A stretch of DNA of 64,000 nucleotides, from the NCBI GenBank assembly GCA_019059635.1, contig JAGVRJ010000005.1, forward strand, positions 2,108,001 through 2,172,000. The letters run 5' to 3'. This DNA is from Proales similis (lineage: Eukaryota > Rotifera > Eurotatoria > Ploima > Proalidae). The translations under genes were made by a program, and so were the position numbers. Positions 19,428 to 57,053 of this stretch are shown here, piece by piece (position 1 is the stretch's first letter; each line of letters begins with the position of its first letter). The notes beneath the pieces were generated by a model. That model was not told the origin of the DNA. It ran no database searches and saw only the letters and a list, made by a program, of their open reading frames with translations.

Positions 19428-20131
19428 GACGCAGCAGCCACCGCCGTAGCTCCGAGCATCAGCAAAATTTTCTCCAACTTCTCACCATGAATTTTCTTTT
19501 CCTCTTTATATTGCTCTTGATGAGCGGCGGGTCAAGTCGACTACAGTGACGAACCGACACCACACATTCTCATGTCGGCATCAAACCACAGCAAACGGCA
19601 CCAAATTTAATTCTCTAAATTATTGCCACGAGATCAGGCCCGAGCCAACAAACTGATCTTGCCAGCAGTCCATTCAAATAATTTACTTGGTAAATTGCCG
19701 CAGCTATGAGAGCACAGCTAGAATAAAGTAAATTTCAACTGAGCCGTGCGGAACCAGCAGCCAGACCCATCGTGTACATACATATCTCGCTAGAACAAGT
19801 CTCATCATTCTAAAATATTGAAAAACGCAGTTGGCGATCATAGTTTTCACTCGGCCGATTCAAATCGTTTCTTATTGCTCCAATTGCAATTCATTTCTAT
19901 TTTAACTCTTTTTTTTTTCAATTCGCTTTCTTTCTAATCATTTTTTATTCTCTTCTTTCTCGTTCTTCTCATTTGGATAGGAATAAAAGCAGTAAAGTGC
20001 ACGAGAACTTTTCCTTCTTCTTCTGCCTCTAAAGCGGTCAAATTGAATCGGACAATTAATTTATTCTAAAATTCGACTCATTGGAATGTGAAAAGAGGCG
20101 CGGGACACAGTTGGTAATAACCGGCGGCTCG
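19428..20131. other. 3' regions of NK2.1 gene 2 and RFT1
   Basis: Convergent gene ends. Pyrimidine-rich tracts lie at 19901-19975 and AATAAAG near 19722. No gene seen. Confidence 0.5.
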
Positions 20132-32909: not shown

Positions 32910-34306
32910 ATGGCTCTTCTCTTATCTGAAGTGTGTCGCCTGATTCTAGGTAGCTGATACACTTTGCAAATCCTTAATCGGTTCATATTGCAATCCTTGG
33001 CCCGATGTGTTCAAGGGTTTCTGGAGGAAGAGAAGCTGTCAAAAACCTACCAGAGTCTGCTGGACGAATGCGAGTTGCTCGAAGAGTGTCGTCAATATGC
33101 AAAGCAAGGCTACAAAGTCCCGACCAAGATTCACGGCAAAAGCCTCAAAGAGCACCTTTCTTTAAATAGTAATTTGCCGCTCTTTTTCAGAGCTCCAGTT
33201 GCTATCTAATCGCAAATTGGAACAGCGTCGAAATGCTTCCGAACTTGTTCAACTCAGACTGAGGCCGAGCCATTTAACTCAAACGAGCCGGATCGTGAAA
33301 GCTTGAAATCGACATTAGGGAGACGCAAAAGGTAAAACTTAATCCAACCCTGACCGTCCACTTTGAAACTTAGTAAAATAGCTTTGGACGAAAGAGAAAA
33401 AGTGTCACGTTCCAGTCCGAAACCAAAAACCAAACAGACGAAGAGACTGAACGACTGCTGGCTGGTATCGACGATTTGGAAGACAATGCGATGCTCGATG
33501 TGAATGTAGGCCAATACCCAGACGCGAAATAGCTTCTGCTTGGCTATCACCAGAAAACAGTCTTTTATACAGAACCTATGCGAGAACGATTTCGCCGAGC
33601 GGCTTGCTCAGAGCATAAACCAGATGAGCTCCAAGAAAAGCGCCAATCGCTCTCTGGATAGCTCTCTGCTCAACTCAAGCATACCAGAAAGCAGTTTGTG
33701 CGAAAGCGTTATGCCTTCTTTGGTGGTTGAACCGGTGGCTGCGTCTACCACGACAAACTCCCAACCGTTCAATGGCGCCTCAACAGGAAGCATAGAACAA
33801 AGAATTGAACAGCCAGGAGAACAAATCGATCTCCTTCTACCCGACCAATTTGATGTTTGTAGATTTAAAATTGCGATTCACTTTGTCAATTAACCTTCAA
33901 TCAATCAAATTCAAGCGATTTTTACTGGATAATCAAGACATAAGCGAACTAGCCGACCATTTCAGTGAGCCAGCGTTTGTTACGCTGTCGAATAACGCGC
34001 TAGTCGGTAGGCAAAGAGACTTCTTCTCGTTTTATTTTCGGTCTATTAAGGAAAAGCAATTCGTAAGGAAAAGCAGCGTTAGAGGACGAAATTGACGACG
34101 AGTCATCAAGAAAGGCGTTGTTCAGGCAAATGGAAAAGGAGGCGCCAAAACTCAGATTGGCTAGAATTGCCGAACCCCCTTCAAAAGCAGTTTCGCGCAC
34201 AGAGCCCGCAATTACTGAACAAAAGTATTCAATTCTTAAAAATATTTTATCTGACGAGGCGTCTAAAGATGGAAGCTCTCGATCAATTGAATCGAAAAAG
34301 ACTTAG
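32910..34306 (+). CDS. NPAT: NPAT-like LisH protein, copy A (with start exon)
   Basis: Vertebrate NPAT and fly Mxc organise the histone locus body and activate histone genes. Exon 1 (32910-32949) encodes MALLLSEVCRLILG and is spliced to 33016, giving RLILGFLEEEKLSKTYQSLL and then QYAKQGYKVPTKIHGKSLKE. This aligns with the NPAT LisH region (SDVARLVLGYLQQENLISTC...GKNL). Two later conserved patches also fit: SFIQNLCENDFAERLAQSIN (NPAT ILSNKSLQEKLAENIN) and ISELADHFSEPAFVTL (IQDILEQTESDPAFQAL). A basic GRKRKSVTF patch lies between. The gene ends ...SRSIESKKT at 34306, far shorter than vertebrate NPAT (over 1,400 residues). Exon borders between 33170 and 33560 are uncertain. Only this copy has the start exon. 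Confidence 0.68.
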
Positions 34307-34662
34307 GGATATGAGCTCCTTAATCAATCCTTAATCAGCCGAAAAGCCAATCAAATGAAAATTTAAACTTGAAATTGCGAATAAAATCAATAAAATTAAT
34401 CTTAGCAGAAGAAGAATAATCAAGACACTGATTGGGACTCGCCCAAATAGTGGCGATTGAAGAGTAAGGGCACCCGTATCATCCTGGGCAGTTGTCTCGG
34501 CTCTGGCAATAAAAGGCACTGGAAGGCGGCTGAAAGGGTTGTAGAAAATACCCGACCTACATAATGACTTTAATTCTGCATGCAAGAACATGAATATGCT
34601 TGTCGTTGCATCTTTATGGAAGGCGCAGCTGAGAAATAGGGCATAATGCGTTGGCAATAACG

Positions 34663-36510
34663 ATGTTCCGAATTGCCAAGTCAAGAGTTGCGCAGGATGG
34701 CTCGCTGGAAAAAGCGAAGGCGCCCATATTCGCTGGTCTTCAAATATTCTTGTATGCAACCGGCGTTGGTCGCACTAGGCTAGAGCTCTTTCGAAGGGCT
34801 CTGGTAAAAAACGGTGCTCAGTTATTAGACGAGGGGCAAGAAATCGCTCTGCCTGATCCAAGACTGGAAAGTCAATTAAGGTGCTTGATCTTAGTCGATG
34901 AAATAGCCGTCGCCGATTGGGAGTGCTTTAGAAAATGCATGCGAAAAAAGAAACTTCTAGAATCAATCGAGAAGGCAATTGAACTCAATCAGACTGATTC
35001 AATTCGTCTTGTAAAACTCACTTGGCTTAGCGAATGCCTCAAACAGTCTACGCTGTTAGATACCAGCAATTACGAAATCAGCATATCTCCAAAGCAGGCC
35101 AAAATTGATTCAAGAATTGACCCGGAGACAGAAAACCTCAAACGTAAACGAGACGAAGAAGCCTTCTCGAAGCCAGCAGCTCGACCTCGATTAGAGCCAG
35201 AATTAGAAACCAGTGGTGAAAGTGATTGCGAGCCTGCTGAACCTCTCGGCCTTGACACTGTCTCGTGGACTTGTGCTCACTCATCAAAAGAACAAAGAGT
35301 GGGCTTGAATGAGAATCTTATCGGCCCATTGCAAGAGATTTCCGAAATATACGAGTCACTTAATGACAAGTACCGAGCGCTAGGCTATCAGAAAGCAATT
35401 ATGGCGATCAGAGGCCTCAAGTTCAAGCTTGAGACGCGCGAGCAAGCAAAAGCAGTCAAAGGTATAGGAACTCGACTCGCAGACAAAGTGATCGAGCTTA
35501 TCGAGAGCGGCGAAATCAGGAAGCTTGAGGAGCTCAAGTCACGCGATGACGTGCAGTCGATAAAACTTTTCAGTCAGGTGCATGGAATAGGCCCAAACAT
35601 CGCTCAGTTATTGGTGGGCCAGGTTGGAGATCTTTCATCTTTTTATTAGACAAAGGGGTGACCATTTAATCAAAGGGATTCCGAACTCTTGACGATCTTC
35701 GACTTAAAGCCAAATTAACTAATCAGCAGAGAATCGGCCTATTATATTTTGACGAGTTCCAGCAGCGTATTCCGCGTGAAGAATGTGCCCAAATCGAACA
35801 AGTGGTGAGTCAGGAAAATTCGACCGATGCGTTTCCTTTTTAAGAACTAACATGAACTTTTCAAGGTCAGAACTGCCGCCCATAACATCGATCCTCTTCT
35901 ACTTGTTGAAATATGCGGCTCATATAGACGGGGAAAGCCGAGTTGTGGTGACGTAGACATTCTAATAAGCAGCAAAGATCGAGACTCCCCAAAAGGCGTG
36001 ATATTCAAACTGCTATCCGCCTTACACGAACAAAGTAATAGTTCAAAATTGACATCTGCTATTTCATACTCTGATCGCAGTGATGAAAAAAAAGATTTCC
36101 TAACAGACGACCTGGCTCTTCCGGATGAGAGTTCAAGCGAATCTCAGCATAAATATTTGGGCGTTTGCCAACTTCCCGGTGGCCTGGTAGGTTTAAAATC
36201 AAATAATCCTGCCCTATTTGAAAAACTTATAAGATTTCAGCATCGACGAATCGACATAATTGAGGTGCCGTTCAATGAACTTGCTTGTGCGCTCATCTAT
36301 TTCACTGGCTCTGAGCATTTTATTCGCTCGATGCGACACTTGGCAAAGAAGAATGGCTATTCGTTAACAGAAAAATCCTTAAATCGAAACGTAATCAGAC
36401 ACGGTTGCCAAAAGCTGAACACGGGAGAACGCATTCGCACGCCGACCGAGCAAGAAGTCTTCCGGCTTCTCAATATTCCGTATCGTCCGCCAGAGGAACG
36501 CGATTTCTAA
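34663..36510 (+). CDS. POLL: DNA polymerase lambda, copy A
   Basis: Family X polymerase for gap filling in end joining and base excision repair. Exons 34663-35622, 35676-35804 and 35866-36510 give 577 residues, against 575 in human. An N-terminal BRCT domain (PIFAGLQIFLYATGVGRTRL to LTWLSECLKQSTLL) is followed by a Ser/Pro linker. The 8-kDa lyase domain has KYRALGYQKAIMAIRGLKFK and the helix-hairpin-helix VKGIGTRLADKVIELIESGE. The polymerase core has EICGSYRRGKPSCGDVDILI, with both catalytic Asp (GDVD), and RRIDIIEVPFNELACALIYF with the third; the thumb ends RPPEERDF. HKYLGVCQLPGG and FTGSEHFIRSMR also match. The lyase lysine (IRGLKFK region) appears present. The ATG at 34663 is used; upstream in-frame codons start only from TTG. 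Confidence 0.95.
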
Positions 36511-36693
36511 CCAAGTGTGCCAAAATACTATTGGCTCGACGTTCTTTCGAAAACTAACTGAAGCGATGAAACTGCGAATAAAATTTATTCGAGTCGAATA
36601 TTTGATTATCGAGACAGGCAAGTCAATTTGCCGACGACGTAAGGAAGCTAATAAAGCCTAAATAAATGGCCGAGTGAGATGAGGAAAGAAAGC

Positions 36694-38996
36694 TTACTCG
36701 TGCTCGAGCTTCTGATGGTCAATAAAAGGAGCGAAAATCATACTGGCGATAATGGCCCTTTGGTCTCTATCAGCCGCATGTTCGATCATTGGGTCCAGAT
36801 GTGCGTTTTTGGCGAGCTCCTCCAGGATTTTGGTCACGTTCGGCCTTTGCTCGTAGTCGGGCAATAGTGAGTGGCTTATACCGTGAGAGGCGATATACAG
36901 CTGCGGACCGGCTGAGGAGACAGAGGCCGAGAAGTTCTCTAAGGACTTGGAGGGCTGATGAAGGTCGAGCAGAACGCTGGCGAATGGAGTGGACTCGGGC
37001 AGATCTACAATGCCTGCTCCTTGTGGTAAAATCGACTCGGCGCCCAAATGAACGCTTCTTGATTGGTTCTTTACTTGAATGAGAATACAGCTCATCGACT
37101 GCAGATTATCGCAGCCAAACACGACCGGAATGATGAGGTCGACCTTTTTTTTGTTCGATTTGTTAAATATTGCACAGCCGCGCCTTAAAGCGTCTCTCAG
37201 GCATTCAGTGTCGAGAGGCCGATAGTTTTCGACAAAGTGAGTGAAGTAAACCCTGGCGGACTTGAGCTCGGAGATGGCGGGCGAGCTCCAGTCAACCTTG
37301 GAGTAAAACAGCTTGTTGAGAAACTGCTCTACCGAGACATGAGAGGCGCCTTCTGTGAGCAAAGAGCCCGACTCAGAGCATGCCTTGTCAAACGCCATGC
37401 ATAGAATGAGCTGGGCAAGAAGCTCGCCCTTGGCACCTTGGTCTATCACAATTGACCGCATCAGGCTGTTGTGAAACACTTGAAGAATCGTTTCCACATG
37501 TTTGTCATGGATGTGCATGAGTCGGATCGCTGCCTCAGCCAGCATTGGCTCCGACGGATAGAACACTTTCACAAGATTTATGTCGGGCTGAATGCCGACA
37601 CAAGTCGCCATGTTGGTGGCCAGCATATCAGTCGAGAATGGGGAAAAGGCATTGATTCGGAGCGGCAGTCTGGCCGCAATGATACTCAACTTGTCGCAGT
37701 CTGTCAGCTGATGAAAATCATTGCCTGACACGCCTCCCATCAGCTTGCCGGTCGCAAAGTTGAGTAATTCGGCTGGAGCTTTCCTGACCGAAGCAATTGC
37801 GGCCCAGAGGGGCCTTCCAAAGCGACACTTGTTGTAGACTGTGCAGGCATCATTCACATTCGCGATAGAAGCTCGCACATCTTTGGCAAACACATCGAAT
37901 GTGGGAAGCAAGAATATCGGCTCGTGCAAAAGATCCCCGCTAGTCAAACGTGACGAGGGATCGCGAATTCTCTTGGGCAGAAAGTTGGTTAGCCTTGAAA
38001 TGGTGTCAATGAACAAGGCCATGTAGACTATCGAGCGCGAGGCCTGCAGCGCCTTGCGCATGATGGCAAAAAGGGTTTCGGTCGGTTCAATTTTGTCCGG
38101 CGTTTGATCGAGCAGGTCGCGGGCTTCATCGAACACAAATACAATGCGGATAGACTTGTCCTTCTCGAGCGCGCTCTCTGCTTCGCTCACTGCTTTTCCC
38201 ACCAGCTTTGATCGCTCGCTCGGTGAAATGGTCGAGGCGAACTCTTCGAGCGTGTCCATAACTTTCATCTCAATTCGGCGAGCAAACATATTTTGGTGAA
38301 AAAAGGCTCGCATCGCTGAACCTTGTGCAGGATCCCACGCATTCTTAAACTCGACGATCTGTTTGGCGTATTCGGCCAGATACAGCCGGCACATGTCTTT
38401 GTACATTTGGGCCGAAGAGCCTTTCGTGAGGTACCGGGCGATGGGAGATCTGGGTGGATAGCCGAAGAAGCTCTTCTGCCTGAGGCAGCAGTAGACCACA
38501 AAAAAGCTGTCACTGAGCCAGTCTGCGCATCTCGTCTTGCCGTAGCCGCTCGACTGAACAATGCACGTGTATGGCGAGTAATATCTTCCGGTGTCGTGGG
38601 CCTTTGAGATATTCTCGATTGTGAGCGCCATGTAGCGCTTGACATCGATTTTGAACAGCGAGTGGTCCATTTTTTCGGACCTGAACATTTTTTCTAGATC
38701 GTCGTTTGCGTCAACATCAATTGTGGGCCTCTCGATCGGACCGTTCTCAAGGTCTCTGATCTCAATCATGCAGCTGTTTGCGAACATTAACTTGGGCATC
38801 AAGTTTGCAAACTGTTCCTTAGTTTCAAAGTTGTATCTCTTTTGGTCAATTGTGGCGCTTTTTGCATATTTCTCCCTTTTCGATGGTAAGTTTTTAAGTC
38901 TAGGGAAAATAATTTTTTTTCTTACCATTTGTTTCCAACGACCTTCTCTACTTCTGAAATAAGGACCCATCTGTCGGGTAAAATTTTCTCTGTCAT
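36694..38996 (-). CDS. Crinkler (CR)-type P-loop NTPase with REase-like C-terminus, copy A
   Basis: Exons 38996-38926 and 38875-36694, separated by a 50-bp intron, give 750 residues. I reject the unspliced start at 38970 because this spliced start (MTEKILPDRWVLISEVEKVV then GNKWEKYAKS) keeps frame in all three copies. Walker A is QSSGYGKTR (about 131-139), followed by the family-like FFVVYCCLRQKSFFGYPPRS; Walker B is IVFVFDEARDLL (about 268-279). Near 600-626, KKVDLIIPVVFGCDNLQ and SCILIQVKNQ resemble the D...QxK core of a PD-(D/E)xK nuclease. This NTPase-plus-nuclease layout is known from Crinkler/CR effector-like proteins of oomycetes and fungi and related transposon-derived proteins. No signal peptide. 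Function here is unknown; a defence, conflict or transposon-derived role is inference. Confidence 0.7.
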
Positions 38997-39669
38997 CTCA
39001 AGCGATTTGGCTACGAGCCTAAGCCGAAAAAAGCTCATCTTCGAGCTGCTAAGCTGTTGAACACTGAATTGTCGAGTGAGGAAATCACATTGCATTTATA
39101 ATAGCCTTATTTTCAAGGTCATCGCTGTGCTTTCAGATTCGCACATTGCATGAATGCACGAGGCATTTCAAATCTCGACTACTAATCGCTAGATTTAGCT
39201 CGATCAGGCCATTTGGATTGTTCCTTTGAACAGAATAGGGTTTGGGATTATGCATAGCTTATTTATATCCTCAAGGCTTGGTTTACATCCTTAAAGTTCG
39301 AGATTCTATTCTTGTCTAGATTGAAACTCACTACAATACCTTGAATTTGAATTTATCTTAAAATGAAAAACTGTGAAATCTCTGAATCTGATCGATCCGC
39401 CGCAGGCAAAAAAGGCTTTAATTTTGCAATTGTGCAAGAGCAAGAGCTTTTCTGATTGTAAATCACTGCTCGGAATAAAATATCAACGTTTGGGCATAAT
39501 GCAGCGACGAATCGGGTTAAAAACTTGTTGAAGAAACACGAGCATTCCTTTTACTTGAAAAGTTACCCTTTCTCTTATTAACTAGCTTGACAAGAGGTGA
39601 ATTTATAGTTAAGAGCAATCTGGCAATCACTTTTCAGCAACTCGACTTTGGTTGTCCATCCTCATCAGC
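38997..39669. promoter_or_regulatory. Divergent intergenic region between CR-type gene and EXD3 (unit A)
   Basis: About 670 bp between two divergent start codons, retained at near-identity in all three units. Includes TTTATAATAG near 39095 and TTATTTATAT near 39258, both TATA-like. It should hold both promoters. Confidence 0.4.
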
Positions 39670-40624
39670 ATGAACGAGCTGCTCACCGCTTACGTCGATT
39701 TGTGGCAGCGAGCGCTTCGTGAAGGAGCCAGTCTTAACTCAGCACAATGCGTACCGTTTCAGCGTCGAAGGCTCAGCATGGACACTGTAGAAGAGATTGA
39801 AACTTTGCTCATGGAGCACATGCTTCAGACCGACTCGAACATTTACGAGTACCATTTGGACCTGATCATCAGGTCAAAAGAACTGGACATGCCCAACCGC
39901 TATCTAGGCGTTCAATATCTCAACAAAGTGTTTGAGGGTCTTCTTAAACAGCATCTGAACCAACTGAATAGAGACGAGGCGAAAAAGGCAAGCGGCCCGA
40001 TTATTCTTCTCGAAGATTCGATCGTTCGCCGGGCCTTCGACCTGGCCGTGCCAGAAAACGTGCCATTGCTTCCGTCTTTTAGTCGAATATATGACTTCAA
40101 GTCTAAGCTTGATTTGTTTCCACTCGACGAGCTGATCCCTTCTCTGCCTCTTGTTGATCGAATCAGAGTCATCTCAGCGCTAGAATTGTATGAGCAGTAT
40201 GACGTTGATTTAGAAGCGGTAGCCCATATTGGTTAATTCTTTCACCGAAACGTATCAAAAGCAACCCGTTTAGGCGCTGGTACCTTTTTTCATCGAAGAC
40301 AAGTACGCGCTTGTGGATGACCTGCTGCGAAACGACGAATATTTCACATTGAAAACAGCAGAGTTATGTGACCGCCTCTGTGGTCCTGAAGTTTGCCTGC
40401 GCGACCTCGTCAGGTGAGCATTCATTTTGAGTTGGTTTTTACTTCCAAATCATTCAATATTTTCCAACACAAAAAGCCAGTACCCAGCTGCGAAACAAAA
40501 TTAATTATTTCAAGCCGCCGAAGATTTCTAAATACGGACGGAGTCTATTGAAAAAGCTAAACAAAACCTATCTCATTCCGAGCAACTACCCGAACTTGCA
40601 CACAAGTATGAAGCTCTCGTCGCT
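39670..40624 (+). pseudogene. EXD3: EXD3/mut-7 5' fragment, copy A (no nuclease domain)
   Basis: Homologous to the first three exons of the complete EXD3 gene in unit C. Exon 1 is intact from the ATG at 39670 (MNELLTAYVDLWQRALREGA) to the donor after YDVDLEA, and exon 2 (PFFIEDKYALVDDLLRND) is intact. Exon 3 has a 5-bp shortening relative to unit C (AAACAAAATTAA against AAAAGAGACAAAATT), which brings a TAA into frame shortly after SQYPAAKQN. The sequence is then cut in exon 3, before the DEDDy exonuclease, and runs into NPAT sequence of unit B. At most a truncated N-terminal protein could be made. Confidence 0.85.
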
Positions 40625-40699
40625 TGATTCTAGGTAGCTGATACACTTTGCAATTCATTAATCGGTTCATATTGCAATCCTTGGCCCGATGTGTTCAAG

Positions 40700-41990
40700 G
40701 GTTTCTGGAGGAAGAGAAGCTGTCAAAAACCTACCAGAGTCTGCTGGACGAATGCGAGTTGCTCGAAGAGTGTCGTCAATATGCAAAGCAAGGCTACAAA
40801 GTCCTGACCAAGATTCACGGCAAAAGCCTCAAAGAGCACCTTTCTTTAAATAGTAATTTGCCGCTCTTTTTCAGAGCTCAAGTTGCTATCTAATCGCAAA
40901 TTGAAACAGCGTCGAAATGCTTCCGAACTTGTTCAACTCAGACTGAGGCCGAGCCATTTAACTCAAACGAGCCGGATCGTGAAAGCTTGAAATCGACATT
41001 AGGGAGACGCAAAAGGTAAAACTTAATCCAACCCTGACCGTCCACTTTGAAACTTAGTAAAATAGCTTTGGACGAAAGAGAAAAAGTGTCACGTTCCAGT
41101 CCGAAACCAAAAACCAAACAGACGAAGAGACTGAACGACTGCTGGCTGGTATCGACGATTTGGAAGACAATGCGATGCTCGATGTGAATGTAGGCCAATA
41201 CCCAGACGCGAAATAGCTTCTGCTTGGCTATCACCAGAAAACAGTCTTTTATACAGAACCTATGCGAGAACGATTTCGCCGAGCGGCTTGCTCAGAGCAT
41301 AAACCAGATGAGCTCCAAGAAAAGCGCCAATCGCTCTCTGGATAGCTCTCTGCTCAACTCAAGCATACCAGAAAGCAGTTTGTGCGAAAGCGTTATGCCT
41401 TCTTTGGTGGTTGAACCGGTGGCTGCGTCTACCACGACAAACTCCCAACCGTTCAATGGCGCCTCAACAGGAAGCATAGAACAAAGAATTGAACAGCCAG
41501 GAGAACAAATCGATCTCCTTCTACCCGACCAATTTGATGTTTGTAGATTTAAAATTGCGATTCACTTTGTCAATTAACCTTCAATCAATCAAATTCAAGC
41601 GATTTTTACTGGATAATCAAGACATAAGCGAACTAGCCGACCATTTCAGTGAGCCAGCGTTTGTTACGCTGTCGAATAACGCGCTAGTCGGTAGGCAAAG
41701 AGACTTCTTCTCGTTTTATTTTCGGTCTATTAAGGAAAAGCAATTCGTAAGGAAAAGCAGCGTTAGAGGACGAAATTGACGACGAGTCATCAAGAAAGGC
41801 GTTGTTCAGGCAAATGGAAAAGGAGGCGCCAAAACTCAGATTGGCTAGAATTGCCGAACCCCCTTCAAAAGCAGTTTCGCGCACAGAGCCCGCAATTACT
41901 GAACAAAAGTATTCAATTCTTAAAAATATTTTATCTGACGAGGCGTCTAAAGATGGAAGCTCTCGATCAATTGAATCGAAAAAGACTTAG
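40700..41990 (+). pseudogene. NPAT: NPAT-like copy B, missing start exon
   Basis: Exon 2 onward is nearly identical to copy A (one visible change makes KVLTK from KVPTK). Exon 1 is absent except its last bases TGATTCTAG, which are fused to EXD3 exon 3 while keeping the GTAGCT splice donor. The first ATG in the fused exon (ATGAAGCTCTCG, 40609) is in phase 2 at that donor, whereas the NPAT acceptor needs phase 1, so splicing gives no in-frame LisH protein. Expression would need a new start. Confidence 0.7.
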
Positions 41991-42346
41991 GGATATGAGC
42001 TCCTTAATCAATCCTTAATCAGCCGAAAAGCCAATCAAATGAAAATTTAAACTTGAAATTGCGAATAAAATCAATAAAATTAATCTTAGCAGAAGAAGAA
42101 TAATCAAGACACTGATTGGGACTCGCCCAAATAGTGGCGATTGAAGAGTAAGGGCACCCGTATCATCCTGGGCAGTTGTCTCGGCTCTGGCAATAAAAGG
42201 CACTGGAAGGCGGCTGAAAGGGTTGTAGAAAATACCCGACCTACATAATGACTTTAATTCTGCATGCAAGAACATGAATATGCTTGTCGTTGCATCTTTA
42301 TGGAAGGCGCAGCTGAGAAATAGGGCATAATGCGTTGGCAATAACG

Positions 42347-44194
42347 ATGTTCCGAATTGCCAAGTCAAGAGTTGCGCAGGATGGCTCGCTGGAAAAAGCG
42401 AAGGCGCCCATATTCGCTGGTCTTCAAATATTCTTGTATGCAACCGGCGTTGGTCGCACTAGGCTAGAGCTCTTTCGAAGGGCTCTGGTAAAAAACGGTG
42501 CCCAGTTATTAGACGAGGGGCAAGAAATCGCTCTGCCTGATCCAAGACTGGAAAGTCAATTAAGGTGCTTGATCTTAGTCGATGAAATAGCCGTCGCCGA
42601 TTGGGAGTGCTTTAGAAAATGCATGCGAAAAAAGAAACTTCTAGAATCAATCGAGAAGGCAATTGAACTCAATCAGACTGATTCAATTCGTCTTGTAAAA
42701 CTCACTTGGCTTAGCGAATGCCTCAAACAGTCTACGCTGTTAGATACCAGCAATTACGAAATCAGCATATCTCCAAAGCAGGCCAAAATTGATTCAAGAA
42801 TTGACCCGGAGACAGAAAACCTCAAACGTAAACGAGACGAAGAAGCCTTCTCGAAGCCAGCAGCTCGACCTCGATTAGAGCCAGAATTAGAAACCAGTGG
42901 TGAAAGTGATTGCGAGCCTGCTGAACCTCTCGGCCTTGACACTGTCTCGTGGACTTGTGCTCACTCATCAAAAGAACAAAGAGTGGGCTTGAATGAGAAT
43001 CTTATCGGCCCATTGCAAGAGATTTCCGAAATATACGAGTCACTTAATGACAAGTACCGAGCGCTAGGCTATCAGAAAGCAATTATGGCGATCAGAGGCC
43101 TCAAGTTCAAGCTTGAGACGCGCGAGCAAGCAAAAGCAGTCAAAGGTATAGGAACTCGACTCGCAGACAAAGTGATCGAGCTTATCGAGAGCGGCGAAAT
43201 CAGGAAGCTTGAGGAGCTCAAGTCACGCGATGACGTGCAGTCGATAAAACTTTTCAGTCAGGTGCATGGAATAGGCCCAAACATCGCTCAGTTATTGGTG
43301 GGCCAGGTTGGAGATCTTTCATCTTTTTATTAGACAAAGGGGTGACCATTTAATCAAAGGGATTCCGAACTCTTGACGATCTTCGACTTAAAGCCAAATT
43401 AACTAATCAGCAGAGAATCGGCCTATTATATTTTGACGAGTTCCAGCAGCGTATTCCGCGTGAAGAATGTGCCCAAATCGAACAAGTGGTGAGTCAGGAA
43501 AATTCGACCGATGCGTTTCCTTTTTAAGGACTAACATGAACTTTTCAAGGTCAGAACTGCCGCCCATAACATCGATCCTCTTCTACTTGTTGAAATATGC
43601 GGCTCATATAGACGGGGAAAGCCGAGTTGTGGTGACGTAGACATTCTAATAAGCAGCAAAGATCGAGACTCCCCAAAAGGCGTGATATTCAAACTGCTAT
43701 CCGCCTTACACGAACAAAGTAATAGTTCAAAATTGACATCTGCTATTTCATACTCTGATCGCAGTGATGAAAAAAAAGATTTCCTAACAGACGACCTGGC
43801 TCTTCCGGATGAGAGTTCAAGCGAATCTCAGCATAAATATTTGGGCGTTTGCCAACTTCCCGGTGGCCTGGTAGGTTTAAAATCAAATAATCCTGCCCTA
43901 TTTGAAAAACTTATAAGATTTCAGCATCGACGAATCGACATAATTGAGGTGCCGTTCAATGAACTTGCTTGTGCGCTCATCTATTTCACTGGCTCTGAGC
44001 ATTTTATTCGCTCGATGCGACACTTGGCAAAGAAGAATGGCTATTCGTTAACAGAAAAATCCTTAAATCGAAACGTAATCAGACACGGTTGCCAAAAGCT
44101 GAACACGGGAGAACGCATTCGCACGCCGACCGAGCAAGAAGTCTTCCGGCTTCTCAATATTCCGTATCGTCCGCCAGAGGAACGCGATTTCTAA
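42347..44194 (+). CDS. POLL: DNA polymerase lambda, copy B
   Basis: Full-length copy, 7684 bp downstream of copy A. The three exons are at 42347-43306, 43360-43488 and 43550-44194. The protein reads the same as copy A: BRCT, HhH/lyase and polymerase domains with GDVD and RRIDIIEV intact. The scattered differences I saw are silent or intronic (for example GGTGCCCAG for GGTGCTCAG in exon 1). The upstream 350 bp between NPAT and POLL is included in the repeat, so the copy has the same proximal promoter. Nothing suggests decay. Confidence 0.93.
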
Positions 44195-44380
44195 CCAAGT
44201 GTGCAAACAAACTATTGGCTCGACGTTCTTTTTAAACACTCACTGAAGCGGTGAGACTATGCGAATAAAGTTTATTCGAGTCTACTATTTACTCATCAGG
44301 AGAGGCAAGTGAATTTTCCGAGGACAAAAGATTTCTAATAAAGCCTAAATAAATGGCCGAGTGAGATGAGGAAAGAAAGC

Positions 44381-46696: not shown

Positions 46697-47390
46697 TTTT
46701 AGCGATGCTGCTACGAGCCTAAGCCGAAAAAAGCTCATCTTCAAGCTGCTAAGCTTTTGAACACTGAATTTTCGAGTGAGGAAATCACATTGCATTTATA
46801 ATAGCCTTATTTTCAAGGTCATCGCTGTGCTTTCAGATTCGCACATTGCATGAATGCACGAGGCATTTCAAATCTCGACTACTAATCGCTAGATTTAGCT
46901 CGATCAGGCCATTTGGATTGTTCCTTTGAACAGAATAGGGTTTGGGATTATGCATAGCTTATTTATATCCTCAAGGCTTGGTTTACATCCTTAAAGTTCG
47001 AAATTCTATTCTTGTCTAGATTGAAACTCACTACAATACCTTGAATTTGAATTTATCTTAAAATGAAAATTTGCGACATGTCTGAATCTGATCGATCCGC
47101 CGCAGGCAAAAAAGGCTTTAATTTTGCAATTGTGCAAGAGCAAGAGCTTTTCTGATTGTAAATCACTGCTCGGAATAAAATATCAACGTTTGGGCATAAT
47201 GCAGCAACGAATCGGGTTTAAAACTTGTTGAAGAAAGACGACCATTCCTTTTACTTTCTTTTACTTCTTACTTTTACATTAAGTTTCCCATTCTCTTATT
47301 AACTAGCTTTGCAAGAGGTGAATTTATAGTTAAGAGCAATCTGACAATCACTTTTGAGCAACTCGACTTTGGTTGTTCATCCTCATCAGC
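46697..47390. promoter_or_regulatory. Divergent intergenic region, unit B
   Basis: Counterpart of 38997-39669. Most of it matches unit A, but 47250-47295 is altered by a TTACTT-rich insertion and there are scattered substitutions nearby. Confidence 0.35.
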
Positions 47391-48244
47391 ATTAACGAGC
47401 TGCTTACCGCTTTCGCCGATTTGTGGCAGCGAGCACTTCGTGAAGGAGCCAGTCTAAACTCAGCACAATGCGTACCTTTTCAGCGTCGAAGGCTGAGCAT
47501 GGACACTGCAGAAGAGATTGAAACTTTGCTCATGGAGCACATGCTTCAGGCCGACTCGAACATTTAAACAGCATCTGAACCAACTGAATAGAGACGAGGC
47601 GAAAAAGGCAAGCGGCCCGATTATTCTTCTCGAAGATTCGATCGTTCGCCGGGCCTTCGACCTGGCCGTGCCAGAAAACGTGCCATTGCTTCCGTCTTTT
47701 AGTCGAATATATGACTTCAAGTCTAAGCTTGATTTGTTTCCACTCGACGAGCTGATCCCTTCTCTGCCTCTTGTTGATCGAATCAGAGTCATCTCAGCGC
47801 TAGAATTGTATGAGCAGTATGACGTTGATTTAGAAGCGGTAGCCCATATTGGTTAATTCTTTCACCGAAACGTATCAAAAGCAACCCGTTTAGGCGCTGG
47901 TACCTTTTTTCATCGAAGACAAGTACGCGCTTGTGGATGACCTGCTGCGAAACGACGAATATTTCACATTGAAAACAGCAGAGTTATGTGACCGCCTCTG
48001 TGGTCCTGAAGTTCGCCTGCGCGACCTCGTCAGGTGAGCATTCATTTTGAGTTGGTTTTTACTTCCAAATCATTCAATATTTTCCAACACAAAAAGCCAG
48101 TACCCAGCTGCGAAACAAAATTAATTATTTCAAGCCGCCGAAGATTTCTAAATACGGACGGAGTCTATTGAAAAAGCTAAACAAAACCTATCTCATTCCG
48201 AGCAACTACCCGAACTTGCACACAAGTATGAAGCTCTCGTCGCT
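47391..48244 (+). pseudogene. EXD3: EXD3/mut-7 5' fragment, copy B (start lost, 101-bp deletion)
   Basis: Counterpart of the EXD3 first exons but doubly broken. The start codon is ATT instead of ATG (47391-47393), and a 101-bp deletion joins GACTCGAACATTTA to AACAGCATCTG at about 47564-47567, with TTA at both breakpoints. The deletion removes YEYHLDLIIRSKELDMPNRY and following residues and shifts the frame. It shares the exon 3 5-bp shortening of copy A and the fusion to NPAT. Non-coding remnant. Confidence 0.9.
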
Positions 48245-48319
48245 TGATTCTAGGTAGCTGATACACTTTGCAATTCATTAATCGGTTCATATTGCAATCC
48301 TTGGCCCGATGTGTTCAAG

Positions 48320-49610
48320 GGTTTCTGGAGGAAGAGAAGCTGTCAAAAACCTACCAGAGTCTGCTGGACGAATGCGAGTTGCTCGAAGAGTGTCGTCAAT
48401 ATGCAAAGCAAGGCTACAAAGTCCCGACCAAGATTCACGGCAAAAGCCTCAAAGAGCACCTTTCTTTAAATAGTAATTTGCCGCTCTTTTTCAGAGCTCC
48501 AGTTGCTATCTAATCGCAAATTGGAACAGCGTCGAAATGCTTCCGAACTTGTTCAACTCAGACTGAGGCCGAGCCATTTAACTCAAACGAGCCGGATCGT
48601 GAAAGCTTGAAATCGACATTAGGGAGACGCAAAAGGTAAAACTTAATCCAACCCTGACCGTCCACTTTGAAACTTAGTAAAATAGCTTTGGACGAAAGAG
48701 AAAAAGTGTCACGTTCCAGTCCGAAACCAAAAACCAAACAGACGAAGAGACTGAACGACTGCTGGCTGGTATCGACGATTTGGAAGACAATGCGATGCTC
48801 GATGTGAATGTAGGCCAATACCCAGACGCGAAATAGCTTCTGCTTGGCTATCACCAGAAAACAGTCTTTTATACAGAACCTATGCGAGAACGATTTCGCC
48901 GAGCGGCTTGCTCAGAGCATAAACCAGATGAGCTCCAAGAAAAGCGCCAATCGCTCTCTGGATAGCTCTCTGCTCAACTCAAGCATACCAGAAAGCAGTT
49001 TGTGCGAAAGCGTTATGCCTTCTTTGGTGGTTGAACCGGTGGCTGCGTCTACCACGACAAACTCCCAACCGTTCAATGGCGCCTCAACAGGAAGCATAGA
49101 ACAAAGAATTGAACAGCCAGGAGAACAAATCGATCTCCTTCTACCCGACCAATTTGATGTTTGTAGATTTAAAATTGCGATTCACTTTGTCAATTAACCT
49201 TCAATCAATCAAATTCAAGCGATTTTTACTGGATAATCAAGACATAAGCGAACTAGCCGACCATTTCAGTGAGCCAGCGTTTGTTACGCTGTCGAATAAC
49301 GCGCTAGTCGGTAGGCAAAGAGACTTCTTCTCGTTTTATTTTCGGTCTATTAAGGAAAAGCAATTCGTAAGGAAAAGCAGCGTTAGAGGACGAAATTGAC
49401 GACGAGTCATCAAGAAAGGCGATGTTCAGGCAAATGGAAAAGGAGGCGCCAAAACTCAGATTGGCTAGAATTGCCGAACCCCCTTCAAAAGCAGTTTCGC
49501 GCACAGAGCCCGCAATTACTGAACAAAAGTATTCAATTCTTAAAAATATTTTATCTGACGAGGCGTCTAAAGATGGAAGCTCTCGATCAATTGAATCGAA
49601 AAAGACTTAG
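48320..49610 (+). pseudogene. NPAT: NPAT-like copy C, missing start exon
   Basis: As copy B: NPAT exon 2 to the last exon are kept, exon 1 is replaced by the EXD3-NPAT fusion exon, and the first usable ATG is out of frame. One coding difference from A is visible, SRKAMFRQ for SRKALFRQ. KVPTK as in copy A. Confidence 0.7.
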
Positions 49611-49956
49611 GGATATGAGCTCCTTAATCAATCCTAAATCAGCCGAAAAGCCAATCAAATGAAAATTTAAACTTGAAATTGCGAATAAAATCAATAAAAT
49701 TAATCTTAGCAGAAGAAGAATAATCAAGACACTGATTGGGACTCGCCCAAATAGTGGCGATTGAAGAGTAAGGGCACCCGTATCATCCTGGGCAGTTGTG
49801 TCGGCTCTGGCACAAAAAGGCGCCTGAAAGGGTTGTAGAAGATACCCGACCTATATAATGACTTTAATTCTGCATGCAAGAACATGAATATGCTTGTCGT
49901 TGCATCTTTATGGAAGGCGCAGCTGAGAAATAGGGCATAATGCGTTGGCAATAACG

Positions 49957-51804
49957 ATGTTCCGAATTGCCAAGTCAAGAGTTGCGCAGGATGGCTCGCT
50001 GGAAAAAGCGAAGGCGCCCATATTCGCTGGTCTTCAAATATTCTTGTATGCAACCGGCGTTGGTCGCACTAGGCTAGAGCTCTTTCGAAGGGCTCTGGTA
50101 AAAAACGGTGCCCAGTTATTAGACGAGGGGCAAGAAATCGCTCTGCCTGATCCAAGACTGGAAAGTCAATTAAGGTGCTTGATCTTAGTCGATGAAATAG
50201 CCGTCGCCGATTGGGAGTGCTTTAGAAAATGCATGCGAAAAAAGAAACTTCTAGAATCAATCGAGAAGGCAATTGAACTCAATCAGACTGATTCAATTCG
50301 TCTTGTAAAACTCACTTGGCTTAGCGAATGCCTCAAACAGTCTACGCTGTTAGATACCAGCAATTACGAAATCAGCATATCTCCAAAGCAGGCCAAAATT
50401 GATTCAAGAATTGACCCGGAGACAGAAAACCTCAAACGTAAACGAGACGAAGAAGCCTTCTCGAAGCCAGCAGCTCGACCTCGATTAGAGCCAGAATTAG
50501 AAACCAGTGGTGAAAGTGATTGCGAGCCTGCTGAACCTCTCGGCCTTGACACTGTCTCGTGGACTTGTGCTCACTCATCAAAAGAACAAAGAGTGGGCTT
50601 GAATGAGAATCTTATCGGCCCATTGCAAGAGATTTCCGAAATATACGAGTCACTTAATGACAAGTACCGAGCGCTAGGCTATCAGAAAGCAATTATGGCG
50701 ATCAGAGGCCTCAAGTTCAAGCTTGAGACGCGCGAGCAAGCAAAAGCAGTCAAAGGTATAGGAACTCGACTCGCAGACAAAGTGATCGAGCTTATCGAGA
50801 GCGGCGAAATCAGGAAGCTTGAGGAGCTCAAGTCACGCGATGACGTGCAGTCGATAAAACTTTTCAGTCAGGTGCATGGAATAGGCCCAAACATCGCTCA
50901 GTTATTGGTGGGCCAGGTTGGAGATCTTTCATCTTTTTATTAGACAAAGGGGTGACCATTTAATCAAAGGGATTCCGAACTCTTGACGATCTTCGACTTA
51001 AAGCCAAATTAACTAATCAGCAGAGAATCGGCCTATTATATTTTGACGAGTTCCAGCAGCGTATTCCGCGTGAAGAATGTGCCCAAATCGAACAAGTGGT
51101 GAGTCAGGAAAATTCGACCGATGCGTTTCCTTTTTAAGAACTAACATGAACTTTTCAAGGTCAGAACTGCCGCCCATAACATCGATCCTCTTCTACTTGT
51201 TGAAATATGCGGCTCATATAGACGGGGAAAGCCGAGTTGTGGTGACGTAGACATTCTAATAAGCAGCAAAGATCGAGACTCCCCAAAAGGCGTGATATTC
51301 AAACTGCTATCCGCCTTACACGAACAAAGTAATAGTTCAAAATTGACATCTGCTATTTCATACTCTGATCGCAGTGATGAAAAAAAAGATTTCCTAACAG
51401 ACGACCTGGCTCTTCCGGATGAGAGTTCAAGCGAATCTCAGCATAAATATTTGGGCGTTTGCCAACTTCCCGGTGGCCTGGTAGGTTTAAAATCAAATAA
51501 TCCTGCCCTATTTGAAAAACTTATAAGATTTCAGCATCGACGAATCGACATAATTGAGGTGCCGTTCAATGAACTTGCTTGTGCGCTCATCTATTTCACT
51601 GGCTCTGAGCATTTTATTCGCTCGATGCGACACTTGGCAAAGAAGAATGGCTATTCGTTAACAGAAAAATCTTTAAATCGAAACGTAATCAGACACGGTT
51701 GCCAAAAGCTGAACACGGGAGAACGCATTCGCACGCCGACCGAGCAAGAAGTCTTCCGGCTTCTCAATATTCCGTATCGTCCGCCAGAGGAACGCGATTT
51801 CTAA
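49957..51804 (+). CDS. POLL: DNA polymerase lambda, copy C
   Basis: Full-length, 15294 bp downstream of copy A. Exons are at 49957-50916, 50970-51098 and 51160-51804. Protein is unchanged from copies A and B, with all catalytic Asp present. The 5' flank differs slightly near 49800-49860, where a few bases are missing compared with A and B (GGCACAAAAAGGCGCCTG), so the promoter of this copy is not identical. Confidence 0.93.
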
Positions 51805-51987
51805 CCAAGTGTGCCAAAATACTATTGGCTCGACGTTCTTTCGAAAACTAACTGAAGCGATGAAACTGCGAATAAAATTTATTCGAGTCGAATATTTGAT
51901 TATCGAGACAGGCAAGTCAATTTGCCGACGACGTAAGGAAGCTAATAAAGCCTAAATAAATGGCCGAGTGAGATGAGGAAAGAAAGC

Positions 51988-54290
51988 TTACTCGTGCTCG
52001 AGCTTCTGATGGTCAATAAAAGGAGCGAAAATCATACTGGCGATAATGGCCCTTTGGTCTCTATCAGCCGCATGTTCGATCATTGGGTCCAGATGTGCGT
52101 TTTTGGCGAGCTCCTCCAGGATTTTGGTCACGTTCGGCCTTTGCTCGTAGTCGGGCAATAGTGAGTGGCTTATACCGTGAGAGGCGATATACAGCTGCGG
52201 ACCGGCTGAGGAGACAGAGGCCGAGAAGTTCTCTAAGGACTTGGAGGGCTGATGAAGGTCGAGCAGAACGCTGGCGAATGGAGTGGACTCGGGCAGATCT
52301 ACAATGCCTGCTCCTTGTGGTAAAATCGACTCGGCGCCCAAATGAACGCTTCTTGATTGGTTCTTTACTTGAATGAGAATACAGCTCATCGACTGCAGAT
52401 TATCGCAGCCAAACACGACCGGAATGATGAGGTCGACCTTTTTTTTGTTCGATTTGTTAAATATTGCACAGCCGCGCCTTAAAGCGTCTCTCAGGCATTC
52501 AGTGTCGAGAGGCCGATAGTTTTCGACAAAGTGAGTGAAGTAAACCCTGGCGGACTTGAGCTCGGAGATGGCGGGCGAGCTCCAGTCAACCTTGGAGTAA
52601 AACAGCTTGTTGAGAAACTGCTCTACCGAGACATGAGAGGCGCCTTCTGTGAGCAAAGAGCCCGACTCAGAGCATGCCTTGTCAAACGCCATGCATAGAA
52701 TGAGCTGGGCAAGAAGCTCGCCCTTGGCACCTTGGTCTATCACAATTGACCGCATCAGGCTGTTGTGAAACACTTGAAGAATCGTTTCCACATGTTTGTC
52801 ATGGATGTGCATGAGTCGGATCGCTGCCTCAGCCAGCATTGGCTCCGACGGATAGAACACTTTCACAAGATTTATGTCGGGCTGAATGCCGACACAAGTC
52901 GCCATGTTGGTGGCCAGCATATCAGTCGAGAATGGGGAAAAGGCATTGATTCGGAGCGGCAGTCTGGCCGCAATGATACTCAACTTGTCGCAGTCTGTCA
53001 GCTGATGAAAATCATTGCCTGACACGCCTCCCATCAGCTTGCCGGTCGCAAAGTTGAGTAATTCGGCTGGAGCTTTCCTGACCGAAGCAATTGCGGCCCA
53101 GAGGGGCCTTCCAAAGCGACACTTGTTGTAGACTGTGCAGGCATCATTCACATTCGCGATAGAAGCTCGCACATCTTTGGCAAACACATCGAATGTGGGA
53201 AGCAAGAATATCGGCTCGTGCAAAAGATCCCCGCTAGTCAAACGTGACGAGGGATCGCGAATTCTCTTGGGCAGAAAGTTGGTTAGCCTTGAAATGGTGT
53301 CAATGAACAAGGCCATGTAGACTATCGAGCGCGAGGCCTGCAGCGCCTTGCGCATGATGGCAAAAAGGGTTTCGGTCGGTTCAATTTTGTCCGGCGTTTG
53401 ATCGAGCAGGTCGCGGGCTTCATCGAACACAAATACAATGCGGATAGACTTGTCCTTCTCGAGCGCGCTCTCTGCTTCGCTCACTGCTTTTCCCACCAGC
53501 TTTGATCGCTCGCTCGGTGAAATGGTCGAGGCGAACTCTTCGAGCGTGTCCATAACTTTCATCTCAATTCGGCGAGCAAACATATTTTGGTGAAAAAAGG
53601 CTCGCATCGCTGAACCTTGTGCAGGATCCCACGCATTCTTAAACTCGACGATCTGTTTGGCGTATTCGGCCAGATACAGCCGGCACATGTCTTTGTACAT
53701 TTGGGCCGAAGAGCCTTTCGTGAGGTACCGGGCGATGGGAGATCTGGGTGGATAGCCGAAGAAGCTCTTCTGCCTGAGGCAGCAGTAGACCACAAAAAAG
53801 CTGTCACTGAGCCAGTCTGCGCATCTCGTCTTGCCGTAGCCGCTCGACTGAACAATGCACGTGTATGGCGAGTAATATCTTCCGGTGTCGTGGGCCTTTG
53901 AGATATTCTCGATTGTGAGCGCCATGTAGCGCTTGACATCGATTTTGAACAGCGAGTGGTCCATTTTTTCGAACCTGAACATTTTTTCTAGATCGTCGTT
54001 TGCGTCAACATCAATTGTGGGCCTCTCGATCGGACCATTCTCAAGGTCTCTGATCTCGATCATGCAGCTGTTTGCGAACATTAACTTGGGCATCAAGTTT
54101 GCAAACTGTTCCTTAGTTTCAAAGTTGTATCTCTTTTGGTCAATTGTGGCGCTTTTTGCATATTTCTCCCTTTTCGATGGTAAGTTTTTAAGTCTAGGGA
54201 AAATAATTTTTTTTCTTACCATTTGTTTCCCAACGCTTTTTCCATCTCAAACATTAGTGAATACTTGTTGTCGATAATTCTTTCTGTCAT
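51988..54290 (-). CDS. CR-type P-loop NTPase/REase-like protein, copy C
   Basis: Start at 54290. Exon 1 (71 bp) encodes MTERIIDNKYSLMFEMEKAL then GNKW: the same length, donor and final GNKW as copy A, but a very different middle. From exon 2 on, the protein is almost identical to copy A (one change seen, MFRFEKMD for MFRSEKMD). Walker A (SSGYGKTR), Walker B (FVFDEARDLL) and the IQVKN motif are intact. It converges with POLL copy C, the stop codons being about 180 bp apart, as in the other units. Confidence 0.7.
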
Positions 54291-54963
54291 CTCAAGCGAT
54301 TTGGCTACGAGCCTAAGCCGAAAAAAGCTCATCTTCGAGCTGCTAAGCTGTTGAACACTGAATTGTCGAGCGAGGAAATCACATTGCATTTATAATAGCC
54401 TTATTTTCAAGGTCATCACTGTGCTTTCAGATTCGCACATTGCATGAATGCACGAGGCATTTCAAATCTCGACTACTAATCGCTAGATTTAGCTCGATCA
54501 GGCCATTTGGATTGTTCCTTTGAACAGAATAGGGTTTGGGATTATGCATAGCTTATTTATATCCTCAAGGCTTGGTTTACATCCTTAAAGTTCGAGATTC
54601 TATTCTTGTCTAGATTGAAACTCACTACAATACCTTGAATTTGAATTTATCTTAAAATGAAAAACTGTGAAATCTCTGAATCTGATCGATCCGCCGCAGG
54701 CAAAAAAGGCTTTAATTTTGCAATTGTGCAAGAGCAAGAGCTTTTCTGATTGTAAATCACTGCTCGGAATAAAATATCAACGTTTGGGCATAATGCAGCG
54801 ACGAATCGGGTTAAAAACTTGTTGAAGAAACACGAGCATTCCTTTTACTTGAAAAGTTACCCTTTCTCTTATTAACTAGCTTGACAAGAGGTGAATTTAT
54901 AGTTAAGAGCAATCTGGCAATCACTTTTCAGCAACTCGACTTTGGTTGTCCATCCTCATCAGC
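54291..54963. promoter_or_regulatory. Divergent intergenic region, unit C
   Basis: Matches the unit A region nearly base for base, including the segment directly upstream of the CR-type start codon, so the divergence of exon 1 does not extend into the promoter. Confidence 0.35.
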
Positions 54964-57053
54964 ATGAACGAGCTGCTCACCGCTTACGTCGATTTGTGGC
55001 AGCGAGCGCTTCGTGAAGGAGCCAGTCTTAACTCAGCACAATGCGTACCGTTTCAGCGTCGAAGGCTCAGCATGGACACTGTAGAAGAGATTGAAACTTT
55101 GCTCATGGAGCACATGCTTCAGGCCGACTCGAACATTTACGAGTACCATTTGGACCTGATCATCAGGTCAAAAGAACTGGACATGCCCAACCGCTATCTA
55201 GGCGTTCAATATCTCAACAAAGTGTTTGAGGGTCTTCTTAAACAGCATCTGAACCAACTGAATAGAGACGAGGCGAAAAAGGCAAGCGGCCCGATTATTC
55301 TTCTCGAAGATTCGATCGTTCGCCGGGCCTTCGACCTGGCCGTGCCAGAAAACGTGCCATTGCTTCCGTCTTTTAGTCGAATATATGACTTCAAGTCTAA
55401 GCTTGATTTGTTTCCACTCGACGAGCTGATCCCTTCTCTGCCTCTTGTTGATCGAATCAGAGTCATCTCAGCGCTAGAATTGTATGAGCAGTATGACGTT
55501 GATTTAGAAGCGGTAGCCCATATTGGTTAATTCTTTCACCGAAACGTATCAAAAGCAACCCGTTTAGGCGCTGGTACCTTTTTTCATCGAAGACAAGTAC
55601 GCGCTTGTGGACGACCTGCTGCGAAACGACGAATATTTCACATTGAAAACAGCAGAGTTATGTGACCGCCTTTGTGGTCCTGAAGTTCGCCTGCGCGACC
55701 TCGTCAAGTAAGCATTCATTTTGATTTGGTTTTTACATACTTCCAAATCATCCAATCATCATCTTTTCTAACACAAAAAGCCAGTACCCAGCTGCCAAAA
55801 GAGACAAAATTCATTATTTCAAGCCGCCTAAGATTTCTAAATATGGATTGAGTCTATTGAAAAAGTTAAACAAAACCTATCTCATCCCGAGCAACTACCC
55901 GAACTTGCACACAAGCATGAAGCTCTCGTCACTTCGATTCTTAATTAGCAAACGTTACACCGAAGCGGACAGCATAAGCGAGGAGGCCTGGTACGAACTT
56001 GTCCTGGTAAGTGTAGAGATGTTAGAAAATGTTAGAAAATCGAGCTAAACGATCTGCTGAAAGGATCTGGTTGGCGATGACCGTTACATGGTGAGAAATC
56101 TGCTCAACGCTTTAGTCGGACAGCACAGAGACTTTGAAGCAGCCCGGGAGGTGTTGCGGGCTCTGGGCGAAGAGCACCTGTCCTCGCTGAATCCCGATCA
56201 GATGGAACAGATCTTGAGCACCGATCAAGCGTGTTCGAAAAGACGAAAACAAACAATGCCCAGCGAAATGTTCTATCAGCCGACCAATTTCAATGAGATG
56301 AAAATCACGTTCGTTGACACTCAAGAACGGTTTGACGAAATGATCGAGTTCTTTTGCGAATTAAAACCAGACGTGATTGGACTCGACTGTGAGTGGAAGC
56401 CGATATTTGGCGCCAATCCCGAAGAGCCTTGTGATGACACGGCTCCGGTGGACGTTAAAAAGAGCCGACCAGACACATTTCAAATAGCGGCCAGAAGTCG
56501 AGTGTTCATTCTGGACACCAAAGAGTTGGTCGACGAGTTGAATGAAAAGTCCCTCGACCAATTCGCCACTCATTTTCTATTCTCGGACGCAATCAAATTA
56601 GGCTTCAGTTTTGAACAGGACGCCGAAAAGCTGCGCAACTGCTTCCAGCGATTTTATAGACAATTCGACGAGTTCGCGCACAACGTCATAAACATGGAGA
56701 AGGTCTTGACGACGGTAAGGAACCAACAAAAACCAGTCAAATGCTTGAATAGTTCGGATAAATTGTGGCAACTTTAGATCGAAAAGAACCACAACATACC
56801 AGAGACGAAGGTAGAAGAAAAGCGCGAAAAAGGACACAAGGGACTCTCCAAGTTTGTGAGCCATTTTTATGGCAAGCCGCTGGACAAACGTGAGTGCATG
56901 TCGAATTGGGCCAATCGCCCGCTCCGTCCACAACAAATAAGCTACGCCGCTCTTGACGCCTATATCCTCATCGAGCTGTACGACTCGCTCAAAGATGAGT
57001 GCCAGCGAAAGGGGGTCGATTTCGAGCGCTACTTTAAACGAGACACTCTTTAG
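54964..57053 (+). CDS. EXD3: EXD3/mut-7-type 3'-5' exonuclease, complete copy
   Basis: Homologue of C. elegans MUT-7, fly Nibbler and vertebrate EXD3, which trim small RNA 3' ends. Exons 54964-55512, 55568-55707, 55781-56006, 56064-56714 and 56778-57053 give 613 residues with consistent phases. The helical N-terminal half (MNELLTAYVDLWQRALREGA to KRYTEADSISEEAWYELVL) resembles the NTD of this family. The DEDDy domain starts near residue 400: VIGLDCEWKPIFG supplies the D and E of motif I, IKLGFSFEQDAEKLRN the motif II Asp, and QISYAALDAYILIELYDSL the Tyr and Asp of motif III. GHKGLSKFVSHFYGKPLDKR precedes motif III as in MUT-7. All catalytic residues are present. This is the only array copy with the nuclease half. 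Confidence 0.88.

Follow-up and report, generated by a model that had tools for sequence, protein, structure and literature searches.

A three-unit tandem array in the rotifer Proales similis and a suggestive link between CR-type genes and local duplication

Introduction

Why should a rotifer carry three copies of the gene for DNA polymerase lambda (POLL) side by side, and is POLL or one of its neighbours the reason? The question is raised by a stretch of 64,000 nucleotides (nt) of Proales similis (the window, C5:2108001-2172000, that is, contig JAGVRJ010000005.1 of assembly GCA_019059635.1; coordinates without a contig prefix are those of the window), in which a unit consisting of a LisH/NPAT-like gene, POLL, a minus-strand gene of CR (Crinkler-RHS) type and the 5' part of an EXD3-like gene, in this order, is repeated. 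This is best read as a real tandem array of the P. similis genome that arose by tandem duplication and unequal crossing-over and was kept or promoted because of the CR-type gene, with POLL, the NPAT-like gene and the EXD3-like gene as passengers, and this reading as a whole is given about an even chance of being right. Besides the array, four further places in this genome with duplication or rearrangement (on C4, C1, C10 and C7) contain CR-type genes, and because these lie there in local duplications with other neighbours, CR and not POLL is the common element and the better suspect. CR proteins are described as a P-loop NTPase plus restriction-endonuclease-like domains (PMC5289972). In the open-licence literature, covered by titles and the beginnings of abstracts and with the P. 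similis genome paper outside this scope, no report of the locus or of rotifer CR genes was found, which is compatible with the remark of a first-pass annotation of this DNA that no animal locus of this kind had been described.

Structure and origin of the array

The units and the tracts that bear on their origin are as follows.

32935..40618, plus strand, unit 1 (7684 bp)
40619..48238, plus strand, unit 2 (7620 bp)
48239..55941, plus strand, unit 3 (7703 bp)
40600..40640, strand not assigned, junction of an EXD3 exon to NPAT-like exon 1/intron 1, recurring at 48238/48239
44205..44334, strand not assigned, copy-2 tract between the 3' ends of POLL and CR, resembling the C7 locus

Self-BLAST of the window (expectation value (E) 1e-10, matches >150 bp) gives as the only large repeat three head-to-tail units that are 97.6-98.8% identical pairwise, namely 98.85% for 32935-40631 against 48239-55941, 97.57% for 39944-47566 against 47564-55139 and 97.86% for 32935-39845 against 40619-47566. 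The 2-kb left part of the unit matches the genome at the three array places only, the right flank has a single 73-bp match besides itself, and an Rfam scan of the window gave no match. The near-identical three-copy array of the first-pass annotation is thus present in the assembly, with the correction that the near-identity is not uniform, the differences being clustered in all three pairs. When the differences of each unit pair were shuffled 1000 times, the longest identical run between copies 1 and 3 (2299 bp) compared with at most 1278 bp in the shuffles and the variance/mean of their differences (12.0) with at most 2.2, and the clustering in both other pairs was likewise above every shuffle. 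Differences arranged in tracts are the pattern that exchange between copies would leave, and given such exchange, little about selection on any single gene can be read from how identical the units are. In addition, the identity between units is about as high in introns, spacers and headless NPAT copies as in POLL, so that recent homogenisation is enough to explain the identity.

The edges and junctions tell how the units may have arisen. The ATG of the LisH/NPAT-like gene (32910) lies outside the repeat and copies 2 and 3 therefore have no start exon, while the exonuclease part of the EXD3-like gene is reached by copy 3 only, its open reading frames (ORFs, 56061-57050) following that copy alone; both edges are as the first-pass annotation had described them. 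The two internal junctions, 40618/40619 and 48238/48239, agree at 596 of 600 positions, and 3-6 nt (GTC or GATTCT, read by eye) are common to both native sides. They support the proposed tandem duplication, in which both the LisH/NPAT-like gene and EXD3 were broken and of which three units are now present. At the left edge three sites within 40 bp set copy 1 apart from the other two, and at the right edge (40318-40607) copy 3 differs by substitutions and small indels, as is predicted by unequal crossing-over between two older copies. The mechanism was most likely ordinary tandem duplication plus exchange: the first duplication would have occurred at the short stretch common to the EXD3 and NPAT-like sides, unequal crossing-over would have led to three units, and exchange would have gone on between the units and with the C7 locus. 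For the last step there is the copy-2 tract listed above, in which, over 100 positions on the CR side, C7 agrees at 97 with copy 2 versus 82 with copies 1 and 3; of the 17 sites that differ in the tract, 16 have copy 2 on the side of C7. C7 was also considered as the single donor of all divergent tracts and rejected, since it fails at 37654-37802 (4 of 13 sites) and at the header tract described below.

An assembly artefact or a false haplotype duplication would make all this illusory. The genome was assembled from PacBio Sequel data (15 scaffolds, guanine + cytosine content 45.51%, total 32,722,929, according to PMC11954553; the assembly used here has 15 contigs and a total of 32,716,893), and a 23-kb array may exceed many reads. 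However, three distinguishable copies are impossible from two haplotypes, the same junction is found twice, the copy-2 tract matches another locus and the array keeps divergent edges, all of which makes an artefact decidedly improbable.

The CR-type gene and its relatives

The CR-type genes of the array and the divergent tract in one of them are the following.

36694..39038, minus strand, CR-type copy 1, header exon 39038-38926, predicted 50-nt intron, main exon 38875-36694, 764 amino acids (aa)
44381..46738, minus strand, CR-type copy 2, 768 aa
51988..54332, minus strand, CR-type copy 3, 764 aa
54231..54285, minus strand, copy-3 tract inside the CR header exon, a diverged patch

The CR frame is open in all three copies, and joining two predicted exons gives the lengths of 764, 768 and 764 aa. 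The header would be joined by an intron of 50-51 nt (GTAAGA...AG), one of several possible joins, and candidate header exons like those of C5 are also present at C1, C4, C6, C7 and C13. A translation start at MPKL had been considered and was dropped once the upstream header exon was found. In the header exon 12 of 37 amino acids differ between copies 3 and 1, with 0.43 synonymous (pS) and 0.19 nonsynonymous (pN) differences per site; a patch of about 50 bp is strongly diverged in copy 3 while the rest of the gene is nearly unchanged, with three changes between copies 1 and 3 from MPKL on. A search of the genome for the donor of this tract gave none, the sole exact match being the window itself, and the C7 match to the copy-3 header exon covers the other half of the exon only.

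A search of the genome with the CR protein gave 23 matches. Thirteen ORFs of at least 725 aa (stop to stop), three in the window and ten elsewhere, were taken for the alignment and the tree, which leave out two broken C10 copies (ORFs of 586 and 508 aa), the C7 relic (459 aa) and fragments. The 13 align over the NTPase and C-terminal regions, and all contain the Walker A motif QSSG[YF]GK[ST] and the Walker B motif FVFDEAR; Walker-like motifs are also found in many of 18 database relatives and are absent from some shorter ones. In the C-terminal region D620 and V642-K643-N644 are invariant in seven aligned rotifer CR proteins, and D620 is conserved at 90% or more with the fungal relatives included. 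From its motifs the CR protein can be described as a P-loop NTPase (QSSGYGKT, FVFDEAR) with a putative restriction-endonuclease-like C-terminal part (D620, QVK643). Motifs and literature taken together suggest an NTP-dependent nuclease, of a kind used in genome conflict or defence, whose N-terminal header is short and variable.

In the tree, built with the 18 relatives of the first search, the 13 rotifer ORFs form one clade (support 100/100) apart from these relatives. Sixteen of the 18 are named fungal proteins and two are without organism, the best 8000 candidates by common words having been scored. A profile search of the same extent (best 8000 candidates scored) gave 17 of the same 18 plus one further protein, which is not in the tree, and no named animal, and hence no named rotifer, is among the 19 different proteins listed, three of which are without organism. 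A search of viral contigs and of bacterial and archaeal genomes gave no confirmed CR relative, and the database matches bear no CR name. The rotifer proteins are likely members of the CR (Crinkler-RHS) family. They resemble the known proteins in the order of an NTPase followed by a putative restriction-endonuclease-like part, in the short predicted header exon and in the duplicated state of the family. They differ in their host, a free-living animal, and in the header. Pfam holds a Crinkler header model, but a Pfam scan of the header exon gave no header match beyond a weak DUF (E up to 5), and no LxLFLAK motif was seen in it by eye. Furthermore, the CRN family of Phytophthora sojae expanded by tandem, segmental and singleton duplication and recombination (PMC3726527). 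The rotifer genes are alike in local and segmental duplication and differ in that neighbouring genes are carried along and repeated, and in that the genome is that of an animal.

CR loci elsewhere in the genome

The recurrence of CR-type genes in rearranged DNA is the main ground for suspecting them. On C4 a gluconokinase-CR pair is present in four units of 4279 bp. The gluconokinase ORF (PDB match 1knq, 4.2e-13, for an ORF without an established first exon) and the CR gene face each other, as do POLL and CR in the window, and all four gluconokinase matches in the genome lie in this array. Copy 1 is divergent on the left and copy 4 on the right, with the switch zone inside the CR coding region, which places the exchange points inside CR. 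On C1 there are four CR copies, 92-98% identical and in both orientations, which adjoin Ataxin-2, with a stray piece of Ataxin-2, and have in common a block of about 2.8-3.2 kb. On C10 (C10:689613-694532) broken CR copies lie in a palindrome with inverted arms of 1357 nt that are 100% identical, which is either a very recent palindrome or an assembly hairpin. The CR relic on C7 (C7:1985799-1990099) lacks the NTPase core, which an in-frame deletion has removed, and keeps the C-terminal part (pN/pS 0.39 for this block); its neighbours are an EXD3-like gene and a fragment of EXD3 exon 1. A CR gene on C13 (C13:1489323-1491377) and a CR fragment on C8 (C8:1771606-1771754) lie a few kb from contig ends and are perhaps subtelomeric.

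Genes at so many places could also have been spread as cargo of a mobile element. The common block of the C1 copies would suit such a transposition, as would the helitron links of CRN genes that are discussed for Phytophthora infestans (PMC5289972). At the C1 loci examined, however, no terminal inverted repeats beyond self-palindromes of 16-20 nt were found, and the C5 unit ends inside neighbouring genes, so that transposition is the remotest of the explanations considered here.

Selection and enrichment

The CR copies on C4 (pN/pS 0.21-0.27, six pairs) and on C1 (0.00-0.28, six pairs) are under purifying selection. As to local duplication, CR matches were compared with kinase matches of at least 200 bits (34 of 142) by counting those with a neighbour of near-equal score (3% tolerance) within 20 kb, score similarity being a proxy for identity; the 15 CR rows include the C10 pair and leave out C7 and short fragments. 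Such a neighbour was found for 10 of 15 CR rows versus 4 of 34 kinase rows (p 2e-4), and in our own tally by locus for 4 of 7 versus 3 of 31 (p 0.013). P450 genes were not counted as a second control, because they match exon by exon.

A number of observations weigh against giving CR this role. The enrichment is modest, with p from 0.02 to 2e-4 over the six settings tried, it measures a similarity of scores that only stands in for identity, and by locus it falls to 3 of 7 (p 0.063) without the C10 palindrome. Kinase matches too form a pair of equal score on C10 and one of near-equal score on C12, and P450 matches occur in close series on C11 and C8; tandem clusters are therefore not unique to CR, and the link between CR genes and local duplication is suggestive, its cause being unproven. 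C13 and C6 each carry a single CR gene. In the array itself CR copies 1 and 2 have a pN/pS of about 0.61 (17 versus 8 changes, counted from MPKL). The units also contain open frames of neighbours (POLL in C5, gluconokinase in C4), and the gluconokinase ORFs are also constrained, with pN/pS 0.30-0.32 in the pairs with copy 1 (synonymous changes are lacking in the other three pairs), so that dosage of a neighbour may still count for something. Finally, the fold assignments of CR consist of motifs and weak Pfam matches, the latter being AAA_16 in 3 of 21 members, AAA_22 in 2 of 21 and also in 1 of 7, and Mrr_cat in 1 of 21 (0.019), and K643 falls outside the columns conserved at 90% or more once the fungal relatives are included.

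These points bring up an alternative, a neutral tandem duplication, that is, a chance event at a short common stretch followed by unequal crossing-over, with no gene beneficial and with identity due to gene conversion. It agrees with the about equal identity of non-coding DNA, headless NPAT and POLL, with the decay of EXD3 copy 2 and with the tandem clusters of other gene families, but it leaves aside the constraint on the CR copies of C4 and C1 and the several separate rearrangements centred on CR. Neutral duplication is accordingly judged rather unlikely, though it is the strongest competitor of a role for CR.

POLL, LisH/NPAT-like and EXD3-like genes

The other genes of the array, with a related gene downstream, are these.

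34663..36510, plus strand, POLL copy 1, exons 34663-35622, 35676-35804 and 35866-36510
42347..44194, plus strand, POLL copy 2, same protein as copy 1
49957..51804, plus strand, POLL copy 3, same protein as copy 1
32910..32949, plus strand, LisH/NPAT-like start exon, its ATG outside the repeat, read directly
39613..40618, plus strand, EXD3 5' part, copy 1, ending at the junction
47334..48238, plus strand, EXD3 5' part, copy 2, start mapped from copy 1, frame lost
54907..57050, plus strand, EXD3-like gene, copy 3, 5' ORF 54907-55530, exonuclease ORFs 56061-57050
59548..60705, plus strand, second, older EXD3-like gene, 36% identical to the first

All three POLL copies, each with three exons and introns of 53 and 61 nt, give an identical product of 577 aa. 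The open frames that the first-pass annotation saw in POLL and the CR-type gene are borne out. The best PDB matches of the protein are polymerase lambda (9g9l_F, 3.7e-95). Among Pfam domains HHH_8, lambda fingers, palm and thumb are above the cut-off and BRCT is below it, and the motifs GDVDIL and RRIDII, which we take to be catalytic, can be read in the protein. POLL is thus like known DNA polymerase lambda in its lambda fingers domain and PDB matches and differs in having three identical copies. With POLL as query against the whole genome (E 0.001) neither DNA polymerase beta nor any further polymerase of family X was matched, so this may be the sole family-X polymerase of the rotifer.

It had been suggested that the open POLL frames hint at a useful dosage, and selection for POLL dosage in DNA repair, with CR as a passenger, is the corresponding explanation of the array. 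Three identical intact genes and the lack of another family-X match speak for it. The hint is not supported, however, as introns, spacers and headless NPAT copies are preserved about equally well, and it is CR, not POLL, that recurs in other arrays, so that POLL dosage is an improbable cause.

The NPAT label is kept here with reservation: the peptide of exons 1 and 2, joined by hand, has a LisH-like N-terminus (LisH_TPL, 1.5e-06), but at 28.2 bits this is just below the Pfam cut-off of 30.7. The decay earlier ascribed to the EXD3 copies is true of copy 2, where a 101-bp deletion has led to loss of the frame, and not of copy 1, whose 5' ORF is open and which has a single difference from copy 3 over 39125-40317. 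The neighbouring gene does encode a 3'-5' exonuclease as had been supposed, its exonuclease domain being DNA_pol_A_exo1 (1.4e-13). This domain is the feature in common with EXD3/MUT-7-type exonucleases; the difference lies in Mut7-C, which was matched only weakly (0.0034) in the EXD3-like paralogue on C7, the one further match of the EXD3 search in the genome, and not in the window ORFs scanned.

Other features of the window

Two related homeobox genes lie in opposite orientation at 10964-11428 and 19100-19500, with 79% DNA identity over 177 bp, which is the sole other self-BLAST match. At 26795-28570 a single open frame encodes a protein of the uracil-DNA glycosylase superfamily that carries a long extension at its C-terminus. 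Among the homologues of the window's RFT1 protein that have a named organism, the nearest is that of Brachionus calyciflorus (54%), other records reaching 60%.

Implications

Under the explanation preferred here, that of an array kept or promoted because of CR, it would be the additional CR copies that were retained, or that promote recombination locally, with POLL and the pieces of NPAT and EXD3 as passengers. A bolder form, which is a speculation with little probability, is that CR genes amplify themselves: through the nuclease activity of their products, or through recombination inside the genes, the surrounding DNA would repeatedly be duplicated as tandem, inverted or palindromic copies, and ectopic exchange would swap header-exon tracts, giving nearly one catalytic body with different headers, so that a fungal-like conflict nuclease would act both as a duplication driver and as a diversifying system.

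The array is a warning against reading the triplication of POLL as repair-gene dosage. Moreover, these proteins probably constitute a CR-type (Crinkler-like) NTPase-nuclease family of a free-living animal whose genome is compact (33 Mb), and copies under constraint occur at several of its rearranged loci. Should CR genes indeed be linked to local duplication, P. similis would offer a small and tractable genome for asking whether CR proteins are retained as a defence or further their own copying.

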